Assembly (NCBI RefSeq): GCF_000013605.1
Contig: NC_007908.1
Location: 2,728,001-2,792,000, forward strand
Direction of reading: 5' to 3'
Origin: Rhodoferax ferrireducens T118
GTDB lineage: Bacteria > Pseudomonadota > Gammaproteobacteria > Burkholderiales > Burkholderiaceae_C
DNA length: 64,000 nucleotides
This document shows positions 6,927 through 39,936 of this stretch, piece by piece (position 1 is the stretch's first letter; each line of letters starts with the position of its first letter). Made by a program: the position numbers and the translations under genes. The notes beneath the pieces are model-generated. The model made no database searches. It was not told where the DNA came from and worked only from the letters and a program-made list of their open reading frames with translations.

Positions 6927-8666
6927 TCAGAAAGCTTCCCAATCCGCTTCACCCGCTGGGGCGTCTTTAGCGAGCGTTTTCGCCGGCGCTTTGGCGGAAT
7001 TCTTCAACGCAGCACCTGACGACGGCGCCGCCAGGGCGCGGCGCGCGACGGGCTGGCGGACACCCGGGGCAGGCTGATTCGAGCGCAGCGCTGCCGGTGG
7101 TGGTGCCCGCCGGGGCGAGTCAACGCTGACGAGCTTGAACACGGCCACCGTTTGCACCAGATCTTGCGCCTGCGACTTGAGGCTGTTGGCTGCAGCCGCC
7201 ATTTGCTCCACCAACGCGGCATTTTGCTGCGTGGACTGGTCCATCTGAGTCACCGCCTCACCCACTTGCGACACGCCCAGCGCCTGCTCGCTGCTGGCGG
7301 AGCTGATCTCGCCCATGATGTCGGTCACACGGTGAATGCTGCTCACCACCTCGGCCATGGTGACGCCGGCCTGGTCCACCAGCGTGCTGCCCTGCTCCAC
7401 CCGCTCCACACTGGCGTTGATCAATGACTTGATTTCTTTCGCTGCTTCGGCAGAACGCCCGGCCAGGCTGCGCACCTCGCTGGCCACCACCGCAAAGCCA
7501 CGCCCCTGTTCACCGGCCCGGGCGGCTTCCACCGCCGCGTTCAAAGCCAGGATATTGGTCTGGAACGCAATGCCATCAATCACACTGATGATGTCTGAGA
7601 TTTTGCGTGAGGCATCATTGATGCCCTTCATGGTGTCCACCACCTGCGCCACCACTTCGCCGCCCTTGACGGCCACCGCGCTGGCACTCAAAGCCAGTTG
7701 GTTGGCCTGGCGCGCGCTGTCGGCATTTTGTTTGACGGCGGCGCTGAGTTGCTCCATCGAAGACGCGGTTTGTTCCAGCGCGCTGGCCTGACTCTCCGTG
7801 CGGGCACTCAGATCCTGGTTACCCTGCGCAATTTCGGCGCTGGCGACCTGCAGGCCCTCGGAGCCGCGGTGAACATTGGCAACGACCCGGGCCAGGCTGG
7901 CCTGCATCAGATCCAGATGGGCCATCAGGCTGCTGGTGTCGCCTGCCTTGAGCATGTTTTCCTCGCTCAGATCACCCTGGGCCACGCGCTGTGCCAGGTT
8001 CACGGCATCCTGCGGCTCGCCCCCGAGCTGCTTGATGATGCTTCGGCTCAACAAAATACCGAACACGATGCCACCGGCGCACACCAGCAGCATGAGAACC
8101 ACGCTGATGAGGGTTGCCCGGCGGCCCGATGCCGCTGCCTGGGCCAAGACGGCGGCATTGTCGGCCTTGATCCGGGCAACCGCCTGCTCAAGCAGCTTCA
8201 AGGGCTCCCGGTCCATGTCCTGCGCCGAGTTGTCGCCACCGGCCGGATCCATATTGGCGGCCTTGAAAAATTCCAGACCCTTGCGATAGTTCTCCCCCAT
8301 TTGGGTGTGCGCCTGCGCGAACTTAGCCACCAGCGCCCGGCTTTCGCCCTCGGGTAATGCGGCCATCAGCTTCTTGGCCCGCTCTGCCACATCGCGCTCA
8401 TGCTGAACAAAACCGGCCCAATGTGTGCTCATCTTTTCAGCGTTTGAACCGCGCAGCAGGACGTTCTTCCACTCCAGTACCTGGGTCTTGAAAACCAGCG
8501 CCATATCAGCGACCTGGGCCTCGTGATTGGTGTTGGCTGTGGCGGCCACCGCATTTTCAAACGTCCCAAGCGATTGGTTCAAGCTGTAGATGCCGAACAG
8601 CGCCGCACAGAACAGAAAGAGCTGCGCCCAGGCAAACGCCAGAGGTAACTTGAGGCTTAGTTTCAT
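6927..8666 (-). CDS. Methyl-accepting chemotaxis protein
   Basis: A 579-residue chemoreceptor. It has an N-terminal membrane helix, a periplasmic four-helix-type ligand domain (about residues 30-180), a second membrane helix ([20 protein letters not shown]), a HAMP region, and a cytoplasmic signalling hairpin containing the near-invariant [20 protein letters not shown] tip. The linker near the C-terminus is rich in Pro and Ala and the protein ends in DWEAF, resembling the NWETF-type pentapeptide that tethers CheR/CheB. The open frame extends to a TTG at 8696, but ATG 8666 gives the usual [12 protein letters not shown] start. The ligand cannot be told from sequence. A second receptor of the same design lies at 40641. 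Confidence 0.92.
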
Positions 8667-29830: not shown

Positions 29831-32509
29831 GTGACAGACGCAACTCCCTCCCCACTTGCAGCCCCGGCGCCCGACAGGCCCGACGCCCAGGCCATGGCGC
29901 TGGCGTCAGTGGCGGCGGCTGGCCATTTCGACGAACTGCGCGGCGCCACTGCCTCCCGTGCTGGCCCAGCCAACGCCGAGGCGGCGGATTCAAACGCTGA
30001 TGGAGGCCCGCTGGCGCCGGCGTGGACTCGGTTCTTTGAGCATTTGGCCGACAAGACCGCGCTTGACCTGAACCAGCGCGCCGCCAGTCTGGCGCGCCAG
30101 GTCCGCGACAACGGCGTCACCTGCAACGTCTATGCCGACGAAGACGGACTGCAGCGCCCCTGTTCGCTGGACTTGTTTCCGCTGATCATTGAGCCCGCCA
30201 GCTGGCAGCAGATTGAGTCTGGCGTACTGCAACGCGTGCGGCTGCTGGAGCGGATCATGGCCGACATCTACGGGCCGCAGCAGTTGCTGATGAAGGGCTG
30301 GTTGCCACCCGCGCTGGTGCAAGGGCACCCTGGCTACCTGCGTGCCATGCATGGCGTCAAGCCGGTCGGCGGCATGCATTTGCACGTTGCGGCCTTCGAC
30401 CTGGGGCGCGGTCCGGATGGCAACTGGTGGCTGGTGGGCCAGCATTGTCAGGCGCCATCGGGTTTGGGCAATCTGCTGGAAAACCGGCTGGCGGTTGCAA
30501 GCCAATTTCCCGAGGCCTTTCAGGCCCTGCACGTGCAAGGTCTGGCCGGCACTTACCGCGCCCTGATGGACAACCTGAAAACGAGGTGCCCGACCGGGGC
30601 GGACGCGCACCTCGCGTTGCTCACCCCCGGCCCTTACAACGAAACCTATTTTGAACAAGCCTGCCTGGCGCGTTACCTGGGCTTGAGCCTGGTGGAAGGC
30701 AGCGACTTGGTCGTGCGCGACGAGCGGCTCTACCTCAAGACCCTCCAAGGCCTGGTGCCGGTGCATGGCCTGTTGACACGGCTTGACGACGAGTACCTGG
30801 ATCCGCTGGAGCTGCGCGCTGACTCCGCCCTGGGTGTGCCGGGCTTGTTGCAGGCCATCCGCGCAGGCCATGTGCTGGTGGCCAATGCGCCAGGCTCGGC
30901 TTTTCTGGAGTCGCCCGCCCTGCTCGGCTTTTTGCCCGCCTTGTCACGCCATTTGCTGGGCGAAGAGCTGCAATTGGCCGCTCTGCCGAGCTGGTGGTGC
31001 GGTGAACGCTCGGCCCTGGAAGATGCCCTGCCCCGGTTGCGTAACAGCGTCATCAAAGCCACCTACCCCGGCTCGCCCGTCCACAACAGTTTTGATGCCG
31101 TGCTGGGCCGCTGCCTGTCAGCGCGCGAACTCGACGAATGGGCCGGGCGTATCGCGCGTCAAAGTGAGGAGCACACCATCCAGGCTTACCTGCCCTTATC
31201 ACAGATGCCCACCTGGCAGCCAGCAGCGCCAGCCACCAGCGCGAGCGCAGCGGGCACGGGCGGTGGGTCTGCGGGTCAGTTGCTGCCACGCTCGGCCATG
31301 CTGCGGGTATTTATGGTCTCAAGCGGCTTGCACTCCTGGCGCGTAGTGCCGGGCGGACTGGCGCGCGTGGCAGGTAGCACGGCAGAGCTTGCCACCATGC
31401 AGCGCGTCGGCCGCAGCGCCGACGTCTGGGCACTGACCTGCGGCGAAGTTGACCAGACGACGCTGTTGCAGCCGGACATGACAGCGGCTTCGGTGGCGCA
31501 GCCCAAACGACTGGTCACCAGCCGCGCAGCAGAAAATCTTTATTGGCTGGGCCGCTACACCGAGCGCACTGAAAACGCGCTGCGTCTGGCCCGCCTGACG
31601 CTGGAATGCCTCAACGGCGAGGCGCAGTCGCCGCCGGCCTTGCTGGCGTGGCTTGGCAGCATGGCGCTGGCCAACACGCTGGTGCTGCCGGGTGTGCCGT
31701 CGCCGGCCCAGGCGCGCCGCGACTTTGAGCGTTCGCTGATCGCCAGTCTGGGCAGCAACGACGGCGCGACCAGTGTTGGTTATTACCTGCGGGCCCTGAA
31801 AATGGCCGCCTCCAGCGTGCGCGAACAGTTGTCGCCAGCGCATTGGCGCGTCATTGTCCGGGCCGAAGAAGAGCTGTTTGCAGGCTGCGCTGAGCACACC
31901 AGCAGCGGCGACTATTCGTCGCAGGCGGCCCTGCAACTGCTGAAAAAAACCAGTGACCACATGGCCGCCATCACCGGCGCCCAGACGGATCGCATGACGC
32001 GCGACGACGGCTGGCGCTTGCTGAGCATGGGTCGGGATATTGAGCGTCTGGGGTTTTTGGCGGGTACCCTGGCGCGCGGCTTTGAAACCGGCAGTGTCCA
32101 TACCCAAGCGGGCTTTGAAGCCATGATGGCGCTGCTTGACTGCACCACCACCTTTCATGCCCGGTACCCGCAAAGCCGTGACATTGCCGCCCTGCTTGAC
32201 TTGCTGGTGCTTGACCCCGACAACCCGCGTTCCTTGGCTCAGGTGGCACGCGCGTTGCGCGGGTGTCTGTCCCAGCTGGCCGACGGCGCGCCCGGTCAAC
32301 TCGGCGCCTTGTTATTGCGCGTGCCCGACCCGCGGACGTGGGACCTGGCGCACCTGTGCGAAACCCGGCCATCGGGTTCAAACGGGTACTTTTTTGCGCT
32401 GAACGATTTGCTGCTGCAGTGCTCGGGGGCGGCCGTTGATGTATCGAATGCCATCAACAGCAGCTATTTCACGCATTCGGGAGAAATCAACGGGAGCGTG
32501 GGCCCATGA
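29831..32509 (+). CDS. Circularly permuted ATP-grasp / alpha-E fusion protein
   Basis: An 892-residue fusion. The N-terminal ~500 residues are a circularly permuted ATP-grasp domain (FPLIIEPASWQQIESGVLQR, LLERIMADIYGPQ, GPYNETYFEQACLARYLG). The C-terminal ~330 residues are an alpha-E domain (AAENLYWLGRYTERTENALR; DGWRLLSMGRDIERL). In many bacteria these are two genes; here they are one, followed by a transglutaminase gene. Such clusters have been proposed to make or break peptide-like bonds, but no substrate is known. The start is GTG 29831. The stop overlaps the ATG of the transglutaminase gene by 4 bp. The acidic and Ala-rich first 50 residues are poorly conserved. Confidence 0.87.
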   Translation: MTDATPSPLAAPAPDRPDAQAMALASVAAAGHFDELRGATASRAGPANAEAADSNADGGPLAPAWTRFFEHLADKTALDLNQRAASLARQVRDNGVTCNVYADEDGLQRPCSLDLFPLIIEPASWQQIESGVLQRVRLLERIMADIYGPQQLLMKGWLPPALVQGHPGYLRAMHGVKPVGGMHLHVAAFDLGRGPDGNWWLVGQHCQAPSGLGNLLENRLAVASQFPEAFQALHVQGLAGTYRALMDNLKTRCPTGADAHLALLTPGPYNETYFEQACLARYLGLSLVEGSDLVVRDERLYLKTLQGLVPVHGLLTRLDDEYLDPLELRADSALGVPGLLQAIRAGHVLVANAPGSAFLESPALLGFLPALSRHLLGEELQLAALPSWWCGERSALEDALPRLRNSVIKATYPGSPVHNSFDAVLGRCLSARELDEWAGRIARQSEEHTIQAYLPLSQMPTWQPAAPATSASAAGTGGGSAGQLLPRSAMLRVFMVSSGLHSWRVVPGGLARVAGSTAELATMQRVGRSADVWALTCGEVDQTTLLQPDMTAASVAQPKRLVTSRAAENLYWLGRYTERTENALRLARLTLECLNGEAQSPPALLAWLGSMALANTLVLPGVPSPAQARRDFERSLIASLGSNDGATSVGYYLRALKMAASSVREQLSPAHWRVIVRAEEELFAGCAEHTSSGDYSSQAALQLLKKTSDHMAAITGAQTDRMTRDDGWRLLSMGRDIERLGFLAGTLARGFETGSVHTQAGFEAMMALLDCTTTFHARYPQSRDIAALLDLLVLDPDNPRSLAQVARALRGCLSQLADGAPGQLGALLLRVPDPRTWDLAHLCETRPSGSNGYFFALNDLLLQCSGAAVDVSNAINSSYFTHSGEINGSVGP

Positions 32510-33498
32510 AACTGAGCGTCACCCACGAAACCCGCTATGACTACGCGCCTGCGGTAGGAACCGCGCAGCACATGGCCTACCTGCAACCCCTGAATACGCG
32601 TTCGCAGCGGCTTCTGGAACACACGCTGCAGATCGACCCGATACCGGCCAAAATCAGCCGGACACAAGACGTATTTGGCAACACCCGTTGTTATTTCTCA
32701 CTGCAGACACCGCACACGACCCTCACGGTGGTGGCACACAGCGTGGTCGAGACGATCGATTCTTCGCCACCTGCAAGCAGCATCAGTTGGGAGCAAACCC
32801 GGGAACTGTTTCGGTATCGCTCGGGAGGGCGCTTTGACGCCGCGACAGAATTTGTATTTGCTTCACCCTTTGTGCCCCGACACAGCGAATTTGCTGCCTA
32901 CGCGCGGCCCAGTTTCGCCACCGGTAGCTGCGTATTGACCGCAGCGCGGGACTTGATGCAGCGCATTCACAGCGACTTTGCCTACGAGAGCCAGAGCACC
33001 CAGGTCAACACCCCGGCGATAGAGGCGCTGGCGCAGCGCAAAGGGGTATGCCAGGATTTTGCCCACATCATGATTGCCTGCCTGCGGGCCATGGGGCTCG
33101 CTGCACGTTATGTCAGCGGCTATTTGCTGACCCAGCCTGCGCCGGGCACGGTCAAACTCAAAGGCAGTGACGCATCCCACGCCTGGGTGTCGGTGTATGT
33201 GCCGGATCTGCCCGAGGGTGCGCGCTGGTTCGATCTGGACCCCACCAACAACCGCAGTGGTTGGCACTCCCCCGGCGCAGACTATGTCACGCTGGCCCTG
33301 GGACGCGATTTCTCGGACGTGTCGCCGATTCGCGGCGTCATCCACGGCGGTGCCAACCATACGCTGTCTGTCGGTGTCACCGTGGAATCTGTCGCCAGCG
33401 ACGATCAGGCTAACCAGGCAACTGGCCAGACCCAAAAACAGGAACAAACTCAATTGCAGGGCCAGCAGCAATCACCAAGCCATGATGCTACAAATTAG
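32506..33498 (+). CDS. Transglutaminase-like protein
   Basis: A 330-residue protein with an N-terminal bacterial transglutaminase-associated beta domain (LSVTHETRYDYAPAV) and a transglutaminase core. The catalytic triad is visible: Cys in RKGVCQDFAH, His in DASHAWVSV, Asp in FDLDPTNN. Start ATG 32506 overlaps the ATP-grasp/alpha-E stop, confirming coupling. After the core lies a Gln/Thr-rich tail of about 35 residues, and the last codons and the stop are supplied by dispersed repeat copy D. It has no signal peptide, so it should act in the cytoplasm together with its partner. Confidence 0.9.
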   Translation: MKLSVTHETRYDYAPAVGTAQHMAYLQPLNTRSQRLLEHTLQIDPIPAKISRTQDVFGNTRCYFSLQTPHTTLTVVAHSVVETIDSSPPASSISWEQTRELFRYRSGGRFDAATEFVFASPFVPRHSEFAAYARPSFATGSCVLTAARDLMQRIHSDFAYESQSTQVNTPAIEALAQRKGVCQDFAHIMIACLRAMGLAARYVSGYLLTQPAPGTVKLKGSDASHAWVSVYVPDLPEGARWFDLDPTNNRSGWHSPGADYVTLALGRDFSDVSPIRGVIHGGANHTLSVGVTVESVASDDQANQATGQTQKQEQTQLQGQQQSPSHDATN

Positions 33499-33541
33499 AT
33501 AGCATAACGCGCTTTATATTTGGGGGCTAAAGGTCTATTTA
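33486..33541 (+). repeat. Dispersed repeat family 1, copy D
   Basis: It contains GCTACAAATTAGATAGC and TTTGGGGGCTAAAGG. It begins inside the last codons of the transglutaminase gene and provides its stop. It lies on the left side of the E1/cytochrome operon, in the same orientation as copy E at the right side. Confidence 0.65.
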
Positions 33542-33589
33542 GTCACCAAGCCTGGGTAGTCCCGACCCCCATTCAGCGGCGCCACCGAT

Positions 33590-34534
33590 TCAGCCGCGGC
33601 CGGAGACGAGCACCGGTTTGAGATCACGGATGAAGAATTCCGTCAGACCCGCGCGGCTGAGGTGATCGGTATCGAAATAGAGGCTCGGCTCGCTCGTCTT
33701 CGCCGAGAAGTCGTAAAAAAGCACGTCACGCGCAGCAAGTAAACGCGAGAGCGCATCATCGAAGCCCGCCTCCTCGGGAAGCTGGCGGTAAAACTGGGGC
33801 GGCACCGGCATCTTGATGACGACCACAGTGACACCCTCCTTGCGGGCCAAGGCAATGAGCGCTGAGAATTCCTCGAAATATCGGGACAGGGCTGCGGACG
33901 AGACCTTGTCTGGGTACAGGTAGTCGATGCGCTTTTTCACAGCCGAGGATGAGGGCCGATAGGCGCGCTCGAACTGGGCTTCACCTTCCCAGACATCGCG
34001 CTGGAAGCGCTCCCGATTGTTGATCTTCGAGAAGCCGCTGACGTAGTCAAGCACGGCACGCGCATCCACCCCTTCATGGCGGGCGTAATCCCAGAGGCGC
34101 CGGGCGATGGCCGGTTCGAATGGCGTGCGCCGCAGGAGCTTGGCGTCGCCGAAGCGGTCCTCGTTCCATGTGCGCGAGTAGAACGCGAATGAATCGACGA
34201 CATAGAGCAGATGGCGCGCGCGATGCGAACGCAGGAAATGCTCGAACACAAAGCGGTTGTAGAGCGGCCCGGCGCCGGGCGCGGCCAGGTTCAGTATCCT
34301 GAGCTGCGTCTCGCGCTCCATCTGCGCATTGAAGTCGGCGAAATCGAGCGGCATGGCGTGCGAGGCGCCGAGTATCACCCAGTCAACCGTGCTGTCCTGC
34401 GTGGTCGCAATCTTGAAGAATGGGTTGCTGCGTCCGGTGCGAAGCATGAGCTGCTCGGCGGCGTAATAAACGCCGGCGTAGAGCGCGAGGCCGATCGCGA
34501 TGAAGATGAGTGCGGATCTTCCCAGGCGTTTCAT
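33590..34534 (-). CDS. SGNH-like protein paired with MBOAT acyltransferase
   Basis: A 314-residue protein with one N-terminal membrane helix (LIFIAIGLALYAGVYYA) and a probably periplasmic domain. VILGASHAM looks like the block I nucleophile region of an SGNH/DUF1574-like fold, and FDTDHLSRAG like the block V Asp/His pair. Proteins of this kind often accompany MBOAT O-acyltransferases (as AlgJ/AlgX with AlgI) and complete acyl transfer onto a polymer or lipid. It starts 3 bp after the MBOAT stop and is the last gene of the seven-gene operon. The acceptor is unknown. Confidence 0.72.
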   Translation of the reverse strand: MKRLGRSALIFIAIGLALYAGVYYAAEQLMLRTGRSNPFFKIATTQDSTVDWVILGASHAMPLDFADFNAQMERETQLRILNLAAPGAGPLYNRFVFEHFLRSHRARHLLYVVDSFAFYSRTWNEDRFGDAKLLRRTPFEPAIARRLWDYARHEGVDARAVLDYVSGFSKINNRERFQRDVWEGEAQFERAYRPSSSAVKKRIDYLYPDKVSSAALSRYFEEFSALIALARKEGVTVVVIKMPVPPQFYRQLPEEAGFDDALSRLLAARDVLFYDFSAKTSEPSLYFDTDHLSRAGLTEFFIRDLKPVLVSGRG

Positions 34535-34537
34535 GTG

Positions 34538-36010
34538 TCAGAACTGCATGTAGATGAACTCGCGCGCCTGCCACCGGCCGAGGATCAGCAGGACAAAGAT
34601 GGCGAGATACCAGAGGCCCCAGCGCACCACCACCGGCGCCGCAGCCAGCCTCTGAAAAATCGACCGGCGCTCGTCAACGATCTCGACGCTGATCAGGAAC
34701 GCGATCAACGCGAAGGCCGTGTAATGATCCGCAGTGAAGGGAAATCTCGGCAGCAAAGACGGGATATTGGTGAGGTTCAGGCCGATTTTCTTGAGGATCA
34801 GCCACGCATCGCCAAGCGTTCGGGCACGGAAGAACACCCAGGTGATCGCGATCAGGTGGAAGGTCAGCAGCACGCGCAGCGCGAGCAGCGGCACGCTTTG
34901 GCTGATGCGCGGCAGCCATGCACCGACGCGGCGCCAGAATGGGCGTGTGGCCAGGCCGGCCCATTGGTAGCTGCCGTTGAGCGCGCCCCACACGAGGAAG
35001 GTCCAGCCGACGCCGTAACCGAGTCCCGCGTGCCACAGGCCGCTGGCGATAAACACCAGCATCAGGTTCAGGTACTGGCGCACCGGGCCGGTTCGGCTGC
35101 CGCCGAGCGGGATGTACAGGTAGTCACGGAACCACCGGCCGAGCGAAATGTGCCAGCGTTCGCCCCAGAACTCGGCCGTGCTTTTGGCCAGATAGGGCCG
35201 GCGAAAATTCTCCATCAGCTGCAGCCCGAACAGCAGCGAGACGCCGATCGCGATGTCGGTGTAGCCCGAGAAGTCGCAGTAGATCTGGAAGGCAAAAAAA
35301 TAGACGCTGATCAATAGGTCGATTGGCGAGGCGAAGGCCGCGATGCCGAAGCTCTTGTCAACCATAGGCGCGAGGTTGTCGGCGATCACGACCTTCTTGA
35401 TAAGGCCCCAGCCAATCAACTGCAAGCCGAGCACCAGCCGTTCGGGATCGGCGCGCAGGCCGGCCGACAACTGCGGCAGAAAGGTCGTGGCGCGTTCAAT
35501 GGGGCCGGCAAGAATTTTGGGGAACCACGCGAGGTACAGCGCGACATGGCCGGCGCTGTGCTGCCCGGGAAGGCGCCGGGCATACGTGTCAACAAGGTAG
35601 CTGACCGCCGAAAAGGCATAGAACGAATAGCCGACCGGCGTCGTGATGGCGAGCCGCGGCAGCGAGATGGCGGAGTCGCCGCCAAAAGACTGGCCGGCAA
35701 GCCGTTCCAACTCGCCAGCGGCGAAGTCGTAGAACTTGAAGGCAACGAGCGAGCCAACGACCACGACAAGGCCTGCGCCCAGAAGCAGGCGCCGCAAACG
35801 TTCGCCCGTCGTGTGCGCCAGCCCCACGCCGCAGCCCCAGACCAAGAGCGTGAGTGCGCCCAGGTAAACGAGGTTGAACGGTTGCAAGGCCCCGTAGAAG
35901 CCGTAACTTGCGAGCAACAGCCAAATCCAGCGCTTGCCCGGGGGCAGCAGCGCGAACAGCATCAGCGCAAGCGGGAGGAAGACGAAGAATTCGAGCGAGG
36001 TGAACAGCAT
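34538..36010 (-). CDS. MBOAT family membrane O-acyltransferase
   Basis: A 490-residue multi-spanning protein of the AlgI/DltB-type MBOAT family, which moves acyl groups across the membrane to an extracytoplasmic acceptor. Signatures: FPKILAGPIERATTFLPQL, CDFSGYTDIAIG, FWGERWHISLGRWFRDYLYI and the catalytic His region SGLWHAGLGYG. About ten hydrophobic helices are visible, matching the family length of 460-520. It lies 32 bp after the second cytochrome gene and 3 bp before the SGNH-like gene. The association with an exported E1-type enzyme is unusual. Confidence 0.92.
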   Translation of the reverse strand: MLFTSLEFFVFLPLALMLFALLPPGKRWIWLLLASYGFYGALQPFNLVYLGALTLLVWGCGVGLAHTTGERLRRLLLGAGLVVVVGSLVAFKFYDFAAGELERLAGQSFGGDSAISLPRLAITTPVGYSFYAFSAVSYLVDTYARRLPGQHSAGHVALYLAWFPKILAGPIERATTFLPQLSAGLRADPERLVLGLQLIGWGLIKKVVIADNLAPMVDKSFGIAAFASPIDLLISVYFFAFQIYCDFSGYTDIAIGVSLLFGLQLMENFRRPYLAKSTAEFWGERWHISLGRWFRDYLYIPLGGSRTGPVRQYLNLMLVFIASGLWHAGLGYGVGWTFLVWGALNGSYQWAGLATRPFWRRVGAWLPRISQSVPLLALRVLLTFHLIAITWVFFRARTLGDAWLILKKIGLNLTNIPSLLPRFPFTADHYTAFALIAFLISVEIVDERRSIFQRLAAAPVVVRWGLWYLAIFVLLILGRWQAREFIYMQF

Positions 36011-36042
36011 GTGTCACACCTGCGGCGTCCACCGTCGCACAG

Positions 36043-36660
36043 CTAGTAAGTCGCGCCGCCAGCGCGCAACTCCTCTGGCACCTCATCGATCGGAATCGCG
36101 GCGTTCAGAATCAGGTAGCTTGCGAGCGCTTCGCGCTGCTCGCGTGTCAACTTGATCTGGATGTGGCTTGGCTTGTTCATCGAACCCAGCCAGGCATCCT
36201 TGCTGCGCTTTTGCGTGATCACGACCGTGACGATATGGCAGCTCTGGCAATACTCAAGCGTGAAGTCGCGCCCGTCCAGCGGCAGCAGCTTCTCCCAATT
36301 CGCCTGAGCGGGATTCGCAGGAATCTTGGCCGTAGGCAACGGCATGTTGAACGACAGGTAGTCGGCAAGCGTGAGCAACTCCTTCTCGTTCAGGCCTTGC
36401 AGTCCTGTGATCGCCTTGCTATGGTCCTGCAAGTAGCTTCGCCACTCTTCGCGCGTGTGTTTTGCGCTCAGCAGTGCCTTCACTTCACCGGCCGGCGGGC
36501 GGCTCGCAAAGACCTTGGCCAGAAGTGTCCTGCCACCCAAGGGAATGAAGTCGAACACATCGGCTGCCTGGGCCTGCAGGGGTGCGAGAAGCAGCACGGT
36601 GAGCCAAGGCAGGACAGCGCGCGCAAATAGACGAAGAATTTTCATGGCAGTCTCTGACAT
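36043..36660 (-). CDS. Exported monohaem c-type cytochrome, paralogue B
   Basis: A 205-residue protein with a signal peptide (LPWLTVLLLAPLQAQA) and a single haem-binding CQSCH (C138, C141, H142). It shares its layout with the neighbouring cytochrome: P-x-GGR-x-LL early, NMPL, L-P-x-DGRD just before the haem motif, then TQKR, and a second asparagine/proline-containing helix at the end. The two are clearly tandem duplicates. ATG 36660 has GGAG 8 nt upstream; the longer TTG start is rejected. Maturation needs the cytochrome c assembly system, so the haem sits in the periplasm. I infer that it passes electrons from the exported E1 enzyme of this operon. Confidence 0.83.
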   Translation of the reverse strand: MSETAMKILRLFARAVLPWLTVLLLAPLQAQAADVFDFIPLGGRTLLAKVFASRPPAGEVKALLSAKHTREEWRSYLQDHSKAITGLQGLNEKELLTLADYLSFNMPLPTAKIPANPAQANWEKLLPLDGRDFTLEYCQSCHIVTVVITQKRSKDAWLGSMNKPSHIQIKLTREQREALASYLILNAAIPIDEVPEELRAGGATY

Positions 36661-36674
36661 GTCTAGGACTCCGA

Positions 36675-37232
36675 TCAAAACCGCAAATCCTGCGGCACGT
36701 CCTCGATCTTCATCGGCATGTTGAGAGCCGAGTAGCGTGCGAACTCCTCACGCTCCTGCGGGTTCATATTCAACTCGCGATGGAAAGGCGACAGGAACAT
36801 GTTGCGCCAACCTTGGGCATTGCGTTTCTGCGTCAAGTGGCTCGCGAACAGCGAGTGGCAGGATTGGCACCCGTTCCACGCGAGGTCACGTCCATCCGGC
36901 GGCAGCGCGGAGGCCAAGTTGTCGCGCTTCAAAGCGTCATCGGACAGCGGCATGTTGACGGCGAGATAGGCGGCCAGCGTCGCGAGCTCGCGCTCGGTCA
37001 ACGCCTTCTTGCGCGCAGCGACGAAATCGAGCCATTGCGGCTCAGTGCGGCGTGCCTGCGCAATCGCGCGCAGCTCGACCTGGTCGGGAGGAGCGCCAAG
37101 TAGATCAAGCAACAGTGCCCTGCCGCCTTTGGGCATGAAAGCATTGTCTTCCCCCGCTGCCTGCACGAATGCGGACACGGCCATGGCGAGAACGACCAGG
37201 AACAGCCGCCCCCCGTTTGCCACTGTGCTCAT
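36675..37232 (-). CDS. Exported monohaem c-type cytochrome, paralogue A
   Basis: A 185-residue protein with a signal peptide (LFLVVLAMAVSAFVQAAG) and one CQSCH haem motif (C122, C125, H126). The sequence is a paralogue of the protein at 36043: MPKGGRALLLDLLG, NMPLSDD, LPPDGRDLAWNG, THLTQKR-type segment after the haem, and a terminal NMPMKIEDVPQDLRF. A methionine in the final NMPM could be the distal haem ligand (inference). Its ATG overlaps the stop of the zinc-ribbon gene by 4 bp. The family is not one I can name; it is not a standard class I cytochrome c by length. Confidence 0.83.
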   Translation of the reverse strand: MSTVANGGRLFLVVLAMAVSAFVQAAGEDNAFMPKGGRALLLDLLGAPPDQVELRAIAQARRTEPQWLDFVAARKKALTERELATLAAYLAVNMPLSDDALKRDNLASALPPDGRDLAWNGCQSCHSLFASHLTQKRNAQGWRNMFLSPFHRELNMNPQEREEFARYSALNMPMKIEDVPQDLRF

Positions 37233-37519
37233 GGCCCGCTCTTGGCCGCGGCCCGGTCGCCGAACGAGAAAACAGGCACGTTCAACGCCGTTCGCGCCTT
37301 TTCCGCCGGAAAACCTTCGCCGCGGAGCAAGTCAAGGCCGACGACCGTTGTATCGTCATAGAACTGCTCGGCGCATGCCCCGCAGACGAGCGCGGGAATA
37401 TCCTCCACGACCACCAGCCGGTCGTCCTGCCAGAACGCGGAGCGCACGTGACTGATGCTCACGTTGACGCTGCCGCAGTTCGCGCAGGTGAGGGACGGCT
37501 TCTGTTGAAGCGAATCCAT
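37229..37519 (-). CDS. YgiT-type zinc-ribbon protein
   Basis: A 96-residue protein with two CxxC knuckles, CANCG near the N-terminus and CGACAEQFYDD about 35 residues later, separated by a beta-rich stretch ending VEDIPALVC. This is the YgiT-type zinc finger also found at the N-terminus of MqsA-like antitoxins. No helix-turn-helix domain follows and no toxin gene adjoins, so it is probably not an antitoxin. ATG 37519 overlaps the E1 beta stop by one base (TGATG), and its stop overlaps the next ATG, so it is translated together with the enzyme and cytochromes. It may help assembly or act as a small metal protein (inference). Confidence 0.78.
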   Translation of the reverse strand: MDSLQQKPSLTCANCGSVNVSISHVRSAFWQDDRLVVVEDIPALVCGACAEQFYDDTTVVGLDLLRGEGFPAEKARTALNVPVFSFGDRAAAKSGP

Positions 37520-38490
37520 CAACCGACCAACTTTTTCGCTGCGGCGATGATGTGGTCTGCGTTGGGCCGCATCCACAAAAACATCTCTGGCGCAGCCGGC
37601 GGCGGGGCGTCGGGGAACGCAATGCGCTTGAAGCGCGCGCCATCCACATTTTCAGCACAACGAGCAATCACTTCGGCGCCCGGGCAGAGCGTGTAATACG
37701 ACTGATCGACCGTCAGCAACCGTTTGGTTTTCTGCACCGACTTCACCAGTGTCTCGGTATCCATCGGCTTGAGGCAGCGCAGGTCGATCGTCTCGACCTT
37801 CATACCCTGCTTCTGCAGCAAGTCGGCTGCCTTGAGTACTTCGGGCATGCCGCCGCCGGAACCGACGATCGAGATGTCGCTTCCGATCGTGCGAACGGCG
37901 GCCTTGTCGAGCGGCGTCGTGTACTGCTCATTGGGCACCTCTTCCATCAATTCGCGCAGCCCGGCCGGATACAGGTAGCAGACCGGATTGGGATCGCGGA
38001 TCGCCGAGGCCATCATGCCTTTCGCATCGGTAGGCGTGGACGGAACGACGGTCTTGACGCCGGGGATGTGCGCGTAATAGGTGTCGATCTCGTAGTCCGA
38101 ATGCTGGCCTGCGAAACCCGGCGTCTGTCCTGTCATCTCCAGGAGAAACACGATAGGCATTGACGCCATCCCCCCGGTCATGGAACGCAGCTTGCCGGCG
38201 TGGTTCTGAATGACCTGGAAGCACATGCAGTTTCCCTGGTAGGGAATATAGGTCACCGCCTTGGAACCGGCGAGACCCGCGCCCAAGACGCATGAGGCCA
38301 TCCAGTTCTCGTCGATCCCGGTGTTCACCACGCGTTTGCGCCCGAACTCCTTCTCGAGATTGATCACCGGCATGCCGGGCGTGGAGGCCACCGGCGGCGT
38401 CAACTCGTAAATCCAGATCATGTTCTTGTCCTGGCGCATTTCATACTGCACCGCCTCAAGGACTGCATACATCCAACTCTTGCGTGCCAT
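37519..38490 (-). CDS. ThDP-dependent dehydrogenase E1 beta-type subunit
   Basis: A 323-residue transketolase-like subunit resembling the beta chain of pyruvate/acetoin dehydrogenase E1. The N-terminal pyrimidine-binding domain keeps a glutamate (E61 in NTGIDE) at the place of the usual TPISE motif. The C-terminal domain has IVGSGGGMPEVLKAADLL and RCLKPMDTETLVKSV. The middle part (GNCMCFQVIQNHAGKLRSM) departs from normal E1 beta sequences. GGAGAA lies 4 nt before ATG 38490. It has no signal peptide although its partner does, so it would have to be exported as a folded complex with E1 alpha through Tat (inference). No E2/E3 gene is present. Confidence 0.87.
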   Translation of the reverse strand: MARKSWMYAVLEAVQYEMRQDKNMIWIYELTPPVASTPGMPVINLEKEFGRKRVVNTGIDENWMASCVLGAGLAGSKAVTYIPYQGNCMCFQVIQNHAGKLRSMTGGMASMPIVFLLEMTGQTPGFAGQHSDYEIDTYYAHIPGVKTVVPSTPTDAKGMMASAIRDPNPVCYLYPAGLRELMEEVPNEQYTTPLDKAAVRTIGSDISIVGSGGGMPEVLKAADLLQKQGMKVETIDLRCLKPMDTETLVKSVQKTKRLLTVDQSYYTLCPGAEVIARCAENVDGARFKRIAFPDAPPPAAPEMFLWMRPNADHIIAAAKKLVG

Positions 38491-38500
38491 GGTCTTCTCC

Positions 38501-39724
38501 TTAGCCAAACTGCCGAGCGGGTACGACACCCTCGACAAATACGTTTTTAAGACCATCCTCAGGCTTGCAGAACGGCTGCTTGTCCGCCCAAGCGAAGGCA
38601 TCAATCGCCTCCTTCTTCGCGGCGGCTTCGATCTCATCTGCCCGGGCGCGCGTCAGCACGCCCCAGTTGACGAGGATGTTGCGGCAGATGTCAACCGGAT
38701 CGCGCTGCATCCAGGCGCGCACCTCGCGTTCCGGACGGAACGAGGAGATCGCCAGCGGGTCGTAACCAAACGCACCGAGCTGACCGGCCTCCGCGCCGGG
38801 GGCACCCCAGTGGTTGTAGTAGCGGTAGGTCTTGGCCTCGATCAGGGTCGGCCCATCGCCGGCACGGGCGCGATCCACCGCGGTTTTCATGACGTTGTAG
38901 ACCTGGAACACGTCCTGCCCATCCACGACCACACCGGGTATGCGGTAGGTCCGGGCGGCATCGGCGATGTCCTTCATCGGGCAGGAGTACGAGTAGTGCG
39001 CGTACTGGTGGTACAGGTTGTTCTCCAGCACGTAGATGAACGGCAGCTTCAAGAGGGCGGCATTGTTCAAGGCGCTGTGGAAGTGCGGCGTCGCGTAAGT
39101 GCCGTCGCCGCCGAAAACCACCGCCACCTGCTTGCTGTCGCGTGCGCGGAAGGCGAAGGCGGAACCGGTCGCGATCACATGGCCGGGGCCGATCATGCCG
39201 TCGGCGCCGATGAAGCCGCAGGACTTGTCCGAGAGATGCATCTCACCGCCGTAACCCCCGTTGAGGCCGGTGGCACGGAAGTCGTTTTCGGCGGCCATCT
39301 TCTTCATGTCCACGCCTTTGGCAATGGCATGGCCGGTCGGACGATGGGTGCTGTACACGAGGTCGAGCTGGTCGAACGGGCCCTTGTTGTTCAGCGCCGC
39401 GCAGACGCCGGTGGCGACCGCCTCCTGGCCGGCATAGAAGTGGTTGTAGCCCCGGTATTTGGGGTCGGTAATCATCTTGTCGACCATGGTTCGCTCATGC
39501 CATCGGATGCGGACAATGGTGTTGAACATTTCGGTCAACTTGTCGGCGGGCAGATCCTTCGCCCAAAAGCCGATTTCGCCATTGGCCCAGGCGCTCTTGC
39601 TCATGAACGACACGGCCGCACCTGCGCCAGCCACGCCTTTGAGAAATGTCCGCCGGCTTGCGGTCGGTAGCCAAGCACTACCTGCCGTCTCTTGCGATAC
39701 CTCGCTGGATTCAAGTTCAAACAT
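38501..39724 (-). CDS. Tat-exported ThDP-dependent dehydrogenase E1 alpha-type subunit
   Basis: A 407-residue E1 alpha homologue with a clear twin-arginine signal: SRRTFLKG at residues 23-30, a hydrophobic Gly/Ala stretch, and a likely AWA cleavage site at 45-47. The mature part begins like soluble E1 alpha (LPADKLTEMFNTIVRIRWHE), has the STHRPTGH loop, and carries the full ThDP/Mg motif GDG (206-208) to NN (235-236). Ordinary E1 alpha proteins are cytoplasmic. Tat exports folded, cofactor-loaded proteins, which suits a ThDP enzyme. GGAGAG precedes ATG 39724. It is the first gene of a seven-gene operon with cytochromes, and the substrate is unknown. Confidence 0.88.
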   Translation of the reverse strand: MFELESSEVSQETAGSAWLPTASRRTFLKGVAGAGAAVSFMSKSAWANGEIGFWAKDLPADKLTEMFNTIVRIRWHERTMVDKMITDPKYRGYNHFYAGQEAVATGVCAALNNKGPFDQLDLVYSTHRPTGHAIAKGVDMKKMAAENDFRATGLNGGYGGEMHLSDKSCGFIGADGMIGPGHVIATGSAFAFRARDSKQVAVVFGGDGTYATPHFHSALNNAALLKLPFIYVLENNLYHQYAHYSYSCPMKDIADAARTYRIPGVVVDGQDVFQVYNVMKTAVDRARAGDGPTLIEAKTYRYYNHWGAPGAEAGQLGAFGYDPLAISSFRPEREVRAWMQRDPVDICRNILVNWGVLTRARADEIEAAAKKEAIDAFAWADKQPFCKPEDGLKNVFVEGVVPARQFG

Positions 39725-39936
39725 GGAAACTCTCCAATCATTACGCGAGTTAACCGCGTGAAACAACTTTAGGCTTCTGCCCCGGCTGCTGCTTGATATT
39801 TCTCAACGCTGTTCTGAACTGTGCAGACGCCCTCTCTTTGCCTGACCTGCAATAGCCGAATTGCCAGATTCGGGGTCAGTCGCAAGGCCAGCGTCAGTCA
39901 CAATGCCAAGGGCACATTTAAAAAATGTCCTTGAAA

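Follow-up and report, generated by a model that had tools for sequence, protein, structure and literature searches.

The 64,000-nucleotide stretch of Rhodoferax ferrireducens T118 analyzed here (positions 2,728,001 to 2,792,000 of contig NC_007908.1; hereafter the window) carries on its minus strand a seven-gene operon that joins a thiamine diphosphate (ThDP)-dependent E1-type dehydrogenase to two c-type cytochromes, and that probably forms a mobile unit for life under oxygen limitation. Its genes are, in order of reading, E1 alpha (38501–39724), E1 beta (37519–38490), a YgiT-type zinc finger protein of 96 amino acids (37229–37519), the cytochromes cyt1 (36675–37232) and cyt2 (36043–36660, or starting at 36645), a membrane acyltransferase of the MBOAT family (34538–36010) and a membrane-anchored SGNH/DltD-like protein (33590–34534). 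The order and coordinates of these open reading frames are those given by an earlier model-generated account made from the letters alone (the sequence-only reading). The spacings are also as described there: 10 bp between the E1 genes, overlaps of 1 bp between E1 beta and the zinc finger gene and of 4 bp between the latter and cyt1, then 32 bp between cyt2 and MBOAT and 3 bp between MBOAT and SGNH. The distance of 14 bp between the cytochrome genes applies only if cyt2 starts at 36660; the conservation of M6 favors the start at 36645, which gives 29 bp. Three features had escaped the sequence-only reading, namely an FNR-type box that is part of the unit and lies just outside its range, the insertion of the whole cassette, and the siding of E1 alpha with acetoin-type enzymes in one active-site motif.

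The operon recurs in other bacteria as a unit. A pattern scan for E1 alpha in one genome per species (84,980 species) returned 56 loci, from which two belonging to other E1 families (L063 and L064) were dropped. The 54 true relatives left correspond to 51 assemblies by accession prefix (L017, L056 and L062 share one, L026 and L028 another), with 69–93% identity in E1 alpha, and come from Alpha- and Betaproteobacteria, the hosts including Ramlibacter lithotrophicus, Chelativorans, Devosia, Bradyrhizobiaceae and many Rhodobacterales. The complete set of seven genes, in one order and on one strand, is present in 45 of them, and no real gene absence was seen, because the nine incomplete loci break off at contig ends within the operon. 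The sequence-only reading had allowed that its gene order might be conserved in no other genome; this fails, because the order is kept in these 45 loci, where the exported-type E1 alpha co-occurs with both cytochromes. Three loci with one gene in two pieces each (L046, L052 and L055) were scored as having it, as was a locus with half of the SGNH gene before the contig end (L020); start codons of the relatives were chosen by script and may be off in single cases. The split genes (MBOAT, SGNH and cyt1) may reflect sequencing errors or early decay. Rough clustering of open reading frames found no non-operon neighbor common to more than 10 of the 54 loci.

The cassette is rare, and its distribution is patchy. 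A cyt2 profile that recovered all 25 known positives matched T118 alone among the 398 genomes searched from its phylum and the 150 from its family. This rarity is approximate, as the searches behind the negatives scored just the best-ranking candidates of each genome (8, up to 21, or 16, depending on the search). Six of 198 genomes of the Roseovarius family matched the profile; five have the cytochrome pair and were all already in the set (one further region, L096, is the same DNA as L030 and was not counted), and one has a weak match to a SorB-like cytochrome. Plasmid records held no close E1 alpha: all 345 were below 60% identity, the highest value among the best 60 of the 345 being 41%.

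The operon and its upstream box constitute an inserted cassette, because a same-genus genome (G511, region L094) has an empty site. Nucleotide homology with the window (blastn) breaks off at 33386 and sets in again at 39922; the aligned blocks are separated by 83 bp in L094 (10299 to 10383) against 6535 bp in the window; no operon protein was found in L094. The segment without a counterpart at the orthologous site (33387–39921) thus holds the seven genes and their own promoter region. By Pfam, the operon is flanked by a transglutaminase-like gene and a RidA-type (YjgF/L-PSP) gene, which are adjacent in G511. One comparison cannot separate gain in T118 from loss in G511, and the presence of the cassette in only 1 of the 150 family genomes points to gain. 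Next to the insertion, a circularly permuted ATP-grasp/Alpha-E protein overlaps the transglutaminase-like protein by 4 bp (29831–33498 for the two); in the same-genus genome these two genes directly adjoin the RidA-type gene, marking the insertion site. An inverted repeat, CAAGGACATTT (39907–39919) and AAATGTGCCCTTG (39923–39933), lies at the boundary where the homology resumes and might be either a remnant of the insertion or a terminator.

The ThDP enzyme keeps its catalytic residues. E1 alpha (PF00676, 3.7e-54; its ATG at 39724 is preceded by GGAGAG) conserves the ThDP motif GDG...ENN and the loop His, and E1 beta, with transketolase-type pyrimidine and C-terminal domains (PF02779, 2.5e-15; PF02780, 1.1e-26), conserves NTGIDE and QHS across the relatives, all of them motifs with customary roles in E1 enzymes. 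Compared with other E1 alphas, the protein has an N-terminal extension for twin-arginine translocation (Tat), six extra residues before YSTHRP, an altered ENNLYHQYAHYS segment and, by alignment, 16 extra residues after the YRYYNH loop, within residues 306–326 (WGAPGAEAGQLGAFGYDPLAI; 38747–38809), where the columns are mostly invariant among the relatives. In ordinary E1s this loop sits where the active-site channel used by the lipoyl domain opens. At the THR motif the protein aligns with acetoin-type rows and some others, as against TYR in rows of the pyruvate dehydrogenase (PDH) type. A tree of 23 sequences placed the family in one clade (100/100) on a long stem of 3.26 changes per column and did not settle its place among the others.

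As the sequence-only reading stated, the cassette encodes neither E2 nor E3. This differs from the arrangement at other E1 loci: in six of seven comparison loci from plasmid records the neighboring gene is annotated as a lipoyl protein or an E2 (the seventh, labeled acoA, has an unnamed small protein only), and in T118 itself each of the four other true E1 genes has a lipoyl match within about 1.5 kb. The possibility that a lipoyl E2 encoded elsewhere in T118 serves the cassette enzyme received no support. Sixteen PF00364 matches were obtained, none of them within about 215 kb of the cassette E1, and the nearest adjoins another E1. Four are biotin carboxylases, two are HlyD-type adaptors by Pfam (L081 and L082; weak matches with hydrophobic N-termini), and the other ten show by eye no signal-like N-terminus; no exported lipoyl E2 was found among them. 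A degraded PDH operon was also considered and rejected, with all seven genes conserved and the catalytic residues kept.

The export signal that the sequence-only reading saw on E1 alpha is a general feature of the family. The motif RRx[FL][LM] is found in all 51 relatives whose N-terminus is available (L018, L057 and L062 are without an N-terminus and were excluded from the Tat counts and the upstream counts); a hydrophobic stretch comes after it and, as a rule, AxA. A45 and A47 are almost invariant in 16 aligned rows. The putative signal peptide of the window protein comprises residues 1–47 (39584–39724) with SRRTFLKGVAGAGAAVSF and AWA. The E1 beta of the window carries no signal peptide, the N-termini of eight relatives show no Tat motif, and the start of the protein is conserved; we propose that E1 beta leaves the cytoplasm as a Tat hitchhiker with E1 alpha. 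The Tat route would fit such an enzyme, because ThDP binding presumably needs a folded protein. A contrary explanation is that the Tat-like N-terminus goes unused and that E1 is cytoplasmic, working with a lipoyl E2 encoded elsewhere. It can appeal to the Tat call of the window protein, which barely passes the NCBIfam cut-off (TIGR01409, 17.2 against 16.7 bits) and falls below the Pfam one (18.7 against 22.7). We consider it highly improbable, however, given the invariable motif in the relatives, the lipoyl partners that already adjoin the four other E1 genes of T118, and the conserved extra residues behind the active-site loop.

The two cytochromes had been described as monoheme proteins, and each does have a single heme motif, CQSCH at 36855–36869 in cyt1 and at 36235–36249 in cyt2. 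Each is built of two cytochrome c-like domains, however, with the heme motif in the second only. For cyt2 this build comes from a structural model (predicted local distance difference test, 92.5) and a fold match, with a class I cytochrome c fold at residues 128–196 and a heme-less cytochrome-like domain at 41–105; for cyt1 it comes from the similarity to cyt2. Both have a hydrophobic, signal-type N-terminus, both lie below the Pfam cytochrome cut-offs, and CQxCH is conserved among the relatives of each. H151 and M156 are invariant in cyt1. H166 is invariant in cyt2, which has no conserved Met after CXXCH and ends in the tail RAGGA[ST]Y, and is predicted to lack a Met heme ligand (L018, whose match is cyt1, was excluded from the deep cyt2 alignment, and one of 50 cyt2 ends was left uncounted for the same reason). 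VIA-align with cyt2 gave no convincing family beyond cytochrome c among the matches listed. The weak SorB-like match mentioned above (L097 of genome G601, 7901–8089) is weakly similar to the second domain of cyt2, is SorB-like by resemblance only, and is accompanied by none of the other six operon proteins and by no E1 match in the 16 kb examined; its family is a possible source of the operon cytochromes.

That these cytochromes are dedicated to the operon, as had been suggested, agrees with the finding that the pair occurs at a single place, and nowhere else, in all 25 operon genomes searched (in one, cyt1 is in two pieces, and in two there is a stop inside the cyt1 match). Evolutionary distances over 41 loci correlate at r = 0.78–0.79 between E1 and the cytochromes and at 0.78–0.86 among E1 and the cytochromes themselves. 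The values are 0.69–0.71 for E1 against MBOAT and 0.60–0.63 for E1 against SGNH (0.69–0.72 and 0.58–0.63 when E1 or the cytochromes are taken), and 0.86 for MBOAT against SGNH. These values hint at two sub-modules, E1 with the cytochromes and MBOAT with SGNH. An explanation that would uncouple the first sub-module is that the exported enzyme carries out non-oxidative ThDP chemistry, cleaving or forming acyloins, and that the cytochromes belong to a different electron pathway encoded alongside. Carboligation is indeed known from ThDP enzymes of related fold, and the tie between E1 and cytochromes comes from the genes and not from a structure or an assay. Yet the cytochromes are found nowhere else in the 25 genomes, come after E1 and the zinc finger in all complete loci and track E1 in their distances, and we regard this explanation as very unlikely.

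The MBOAT protein (PF03062, 5e-24; DltB 6bug, 6.8e-19) belongs to the DltB/AlgI class and conserves the WH motif. The assignment of its partner to the SGNH proteins comes from weak Pfam matches slightly under the cut-offs (PF07611, 3.6e-6; PF04914, 3.2e-4) and from residues: Ser58 and Asp288-x-x-His291 (S58, D288, D290 and H291) are invariant in 31 members, and the protein has a single N-terminal hydrophobic segment. The pair opens another explanation, namely that an activated acyl group is made outside the cell and that the SGNH protein, with MBOAT as partner, takes it from acyl-ThDP to a surface polymer or small molecule, the disposal of electrons through the cytochromes being secondary. MBOAT and SGNH are indeed in all 45 complete loci, co-vary most strongly with each other, keep their characteristic residues and resemble DltB/DltD. 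Known MBOAT/SGNH systems, however, draw their acyl groups from the cytoplasm, so that an outside source of acyl is unneeded, and the cassette is without polysaccharide or teichoic acid genes; we regard this relay as unlikely. The zinc finger protein (TIGR03831, 41.3 bits against a cut-off of 20.2) has C12, C15, C46 and C49 invariant in 16 aligned members and no hydrophobic segment, and our guess is that it may act as an assembly factor before export. Neither its profile nor that of the SGNH protein gave a convincing sequence match in the PDB. A toxin-antitoxin role (MqsA/YgiT) was rejected for the YgiT protein, which matches only as a zinc finger, gives no helix-turn-helix hit, has no toxin beside it, and stands between E1 beta and cyt1.

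Regulators of the FNR/FixK/Anr type bind the consensus TTGAY-N4-RTCAA. PMC8139620 was consulted for this consensus, which was not found in it. The cassette has, on the minus strand at 39793–39806, the box TTGAGAAATATCAA, which has one mismatch to it and begins 82 bp before the E1 alpha ATG. An exact box is present in 23 of the 52 upstream regions of E1 alpha and a box with at most one mismatch in 40, its center lying at a median of 90 bp ahead of the start codon, while shuffled upstream regions yielded 0.2 of 52. As a stricter control, 1600 segments of 350 bp were taken from the non-operon parts of these loci; 52 of them had an exact box and 129 a box within one mismatch (Fisher p 5e-19 and 2e-31, respectively, which are merely indicative as the loci are related). 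Motifs of the sigma-54, CRP and sigma-H-like types upstream of E1 alpha were at chance level. An FNR motif is described in PMC6446978 upstream of aceE in Accumulibacter, aceE being a different E1.

It seems that the box belongs to a wider setting. The flanks of loci L009 to L062 hold 0.105 exact boxes per kb, where equal base frequencies would predict about 0.004, and because this is far above chance, the cassette probably sits in a larger oxygen-limitation region in several genomes. Crp/Fnr regulators lie near the cassette in seven of the loci examined, four of them with the CxxCx7C...C pattern that we take to mark the oxygen-sensing FnrL. Other flank genes encode universal stress proteins, phosphoribosyl pyrophosphate synthetase, a nitroreductase, a ribonucleotide reductase barrel domain, polyhydroxybutyrate synthase and a nucleoside phosphorylase (30 flank proteins were scanned, picked from clusters and from eight loci, so that these are examples and not counts across all loci). 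The cbb3 oxidase subunit FixO was found in 25 of 25 operon genomes against 2 of 14 control genomes. The FNR-type box and the stress-type neighborhood in several loci (universal stress proteins, nitroreductase) would also suit a cassette whose task at the cell surface, when oxygen is low, is to detoxify or scavenge a reactive carbonyl such as glyoxylate, methylglyoxal or an excreted 2-oxo acid, and which has no part in respiration. The two dedicated cytochromes suggest recovery of electrons instead, and such a role strikes us as very unlikely.

Taken together, the cassette is, in our judgment with somewhat better than even confidence, a horizontally spread device for oxygen limitation, in which an FNR-type-controlled and Tat-exported ThDP enzyme would oxidize a small 2-oxo acid or acyloin and pass the electrons to c-type cytochromes, with the MBOAT/SGNH pair handling the acyl group. 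From the features above we infer the export itself, the regulation in the cell, the substrate, the electron transfer and the roles of the accessory proteins as follows. An FNR/FixK/Anr-type regulator would switch the operon on when oxygen is scarce. E1 alpha and E1 beta would fold with ThDP in the cytoplasm, and Tat would carry both out by means of the E1 alpha signal. The periplasmic enzyme would then attack an acetoin- or pyruvate-like compound, and the two electrons of the hydroxyalkyl-ThDP would go, one at a time, to the two dedicated cytochromes, which we propose as acceptors because there is no lipoyl E2. From there the electrons would enter the cytochrome c pool and go on to a cbb3 oxidase or another oxidant of cytochrome c, while the MBOAT/SGNH pair may handle the acyl product or an acyl modification needed at the membrane. 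Direct electron transfer from hydroxyalkyl-ThDP to heme c is the simplest reading of the mechanism. E1 components are able to reduce artificial acceptors, as in ferricyanide assays of E1, and the acetoin E1 was reportedly named, in work by Oppermann from 1991 that PMC4008487 cites, for its assay with the artificial acceptor 2,6-dichlorophenolindophenol. A more elaborate form would be a PDH-like reaction split across the membrane, with E1 outside, the cytochromes in place of E3 and of lipoate's redox half, and SGNH and MBOAT in place of the acyltransferase E2; the acyl group would then pass from acyl-ThDP to an acceptor at the surface or even, by way of the MBOAT channel, to a carrier in the cytoplasm. 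This form we hold to be quite unlikely.

Several observations weigh against the respiratory interpretation. The evidence is of sequence and not of biochemistry, and the substrate is not readable from it. No precedent was found for an extracytoplasmic E1-type ThDP enzyme, and the window E1 alpha has a borderline Tat score, as given above. In twelve of the 52 upstream regions no box exists within one mismatch; the close relatives L009, L011 and L012 are in this group, with two mismatches. Since the flanks are themselves rich in boxes, part of the box signal belongs to the neighborhood. The presence of FixO in every operon genome is weak evidence, because cbb3 oxidases are common in these bacterial groups. 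Full-length NirS with the D1 domain was found in only 8 of 24 operon genomes and some NirS match in 17 of 24, which gives no clear link. Lastly, shared phylogeny confounds the distance correlations, and the gap to MBOAT is small.

Known systems share parts of this composition. The acetoin dehydrogenase E1 (AcoAB, acetoin:2,6-dichlorophenolindophenol oxidoreductase) has the heterotetrameric ThDP E1 fold in common with the operon enzyme, and the active-site motif THRxxGH is shared with acetoin-type rows, as well as with other non-PDH rows (Nitratireductor, Sphingobium). In contrast to the operon enzyme, AcoAB is cytoplasmic, uses a lipoyl E2 and E3, and has neither the Tat signal nor the extra residues at 306–326; E1 alpha is 34–41% identical to the acetoin-type rows of Thermus, Paracoccus and Enterococcus. 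The heterotetrameric PDH complex likewise shares the domains and catalytic residues of E1 alpha and beta, whereas the operon is without E2 and E3, has an export signal and cytochromes, and scores 223.8 with TIGR03182 against a cut-off of 393.85. The likeness to PoxB, to which the sequence-only reading had turned, is that the electrons of hydroxyethyl-ThDP pass to the respiratory chain without lipoate. PoxB is, however, a single-chain flavoprotein of another ThDP family at the inner face of the membrane, unlike a two-subunit E1 with heme c. Among Pfam matches at E ≤ 1, the operon proteins have no flavin domain and no N-terminal or central POX domain, PF02775 (TPP_enzyme_C) being the only one of the POX set in common, and a PoxB-type enzyme was rejected on grounds of its different architecture. 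The alpha subunit of quinohemoprotein amine dehydrogenase and the sulfite dehydrogenase SorAB resemble the cytochrome part only, their cofactors being quinone and molybdenum and not ThDP. Pairs of the DltB/DltD and AlgI/AlgJ type are like the operon in that a DltB-class MBOAT adjoins a membrane-anchored SGNH protein; the operon differs in lacking alginate, teichoic acid and peptidoglycan genes and in its link to a ThDP enzyme and cytochromes.

No description of such a system was found among the matches listed from the open-license literature of PubMed Central, judged by titles and the beginnings of abstracts, an absence that is no proof. Should the proposed function be true, the ThDP-dependent oxidation of 2-oxo acids and acyloins would not be confined to the cytoplasm or to lipoyl, flavin and iron-sulfur acceptors, and at low oxygen bacteria would oxidize them on the far side of the inner membrane and deliver the electrons directly to the cytochrome c branch. 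If the reaction were split across the membrane in the manner of PDH, the enzyme would be the first of the respiratory-chain ThDP enzymes to be known from outside the cytoplasm, and it would have spread with a cassette for microoxic life. The operon offers an unnamed and testable seven-gene module with two cytochrome families unrecognized by Pfam, and the annotation sources that call its E1 family pyruvate or acetoin dehydrogenase mislead metabolic reconstructions. Another E1 that adjoins a quinoprotein, unrelated to the cassette, was seen on plasmid pBSY17_1 of Sphingobium sp. RAC03 (L083, 5010–9277), where E1 alpha and beta, a biotin/lipoyl protein of 79 amino acids and a pyrroloquinoline quinone-dependent dehydrogenase are encoded in one run.

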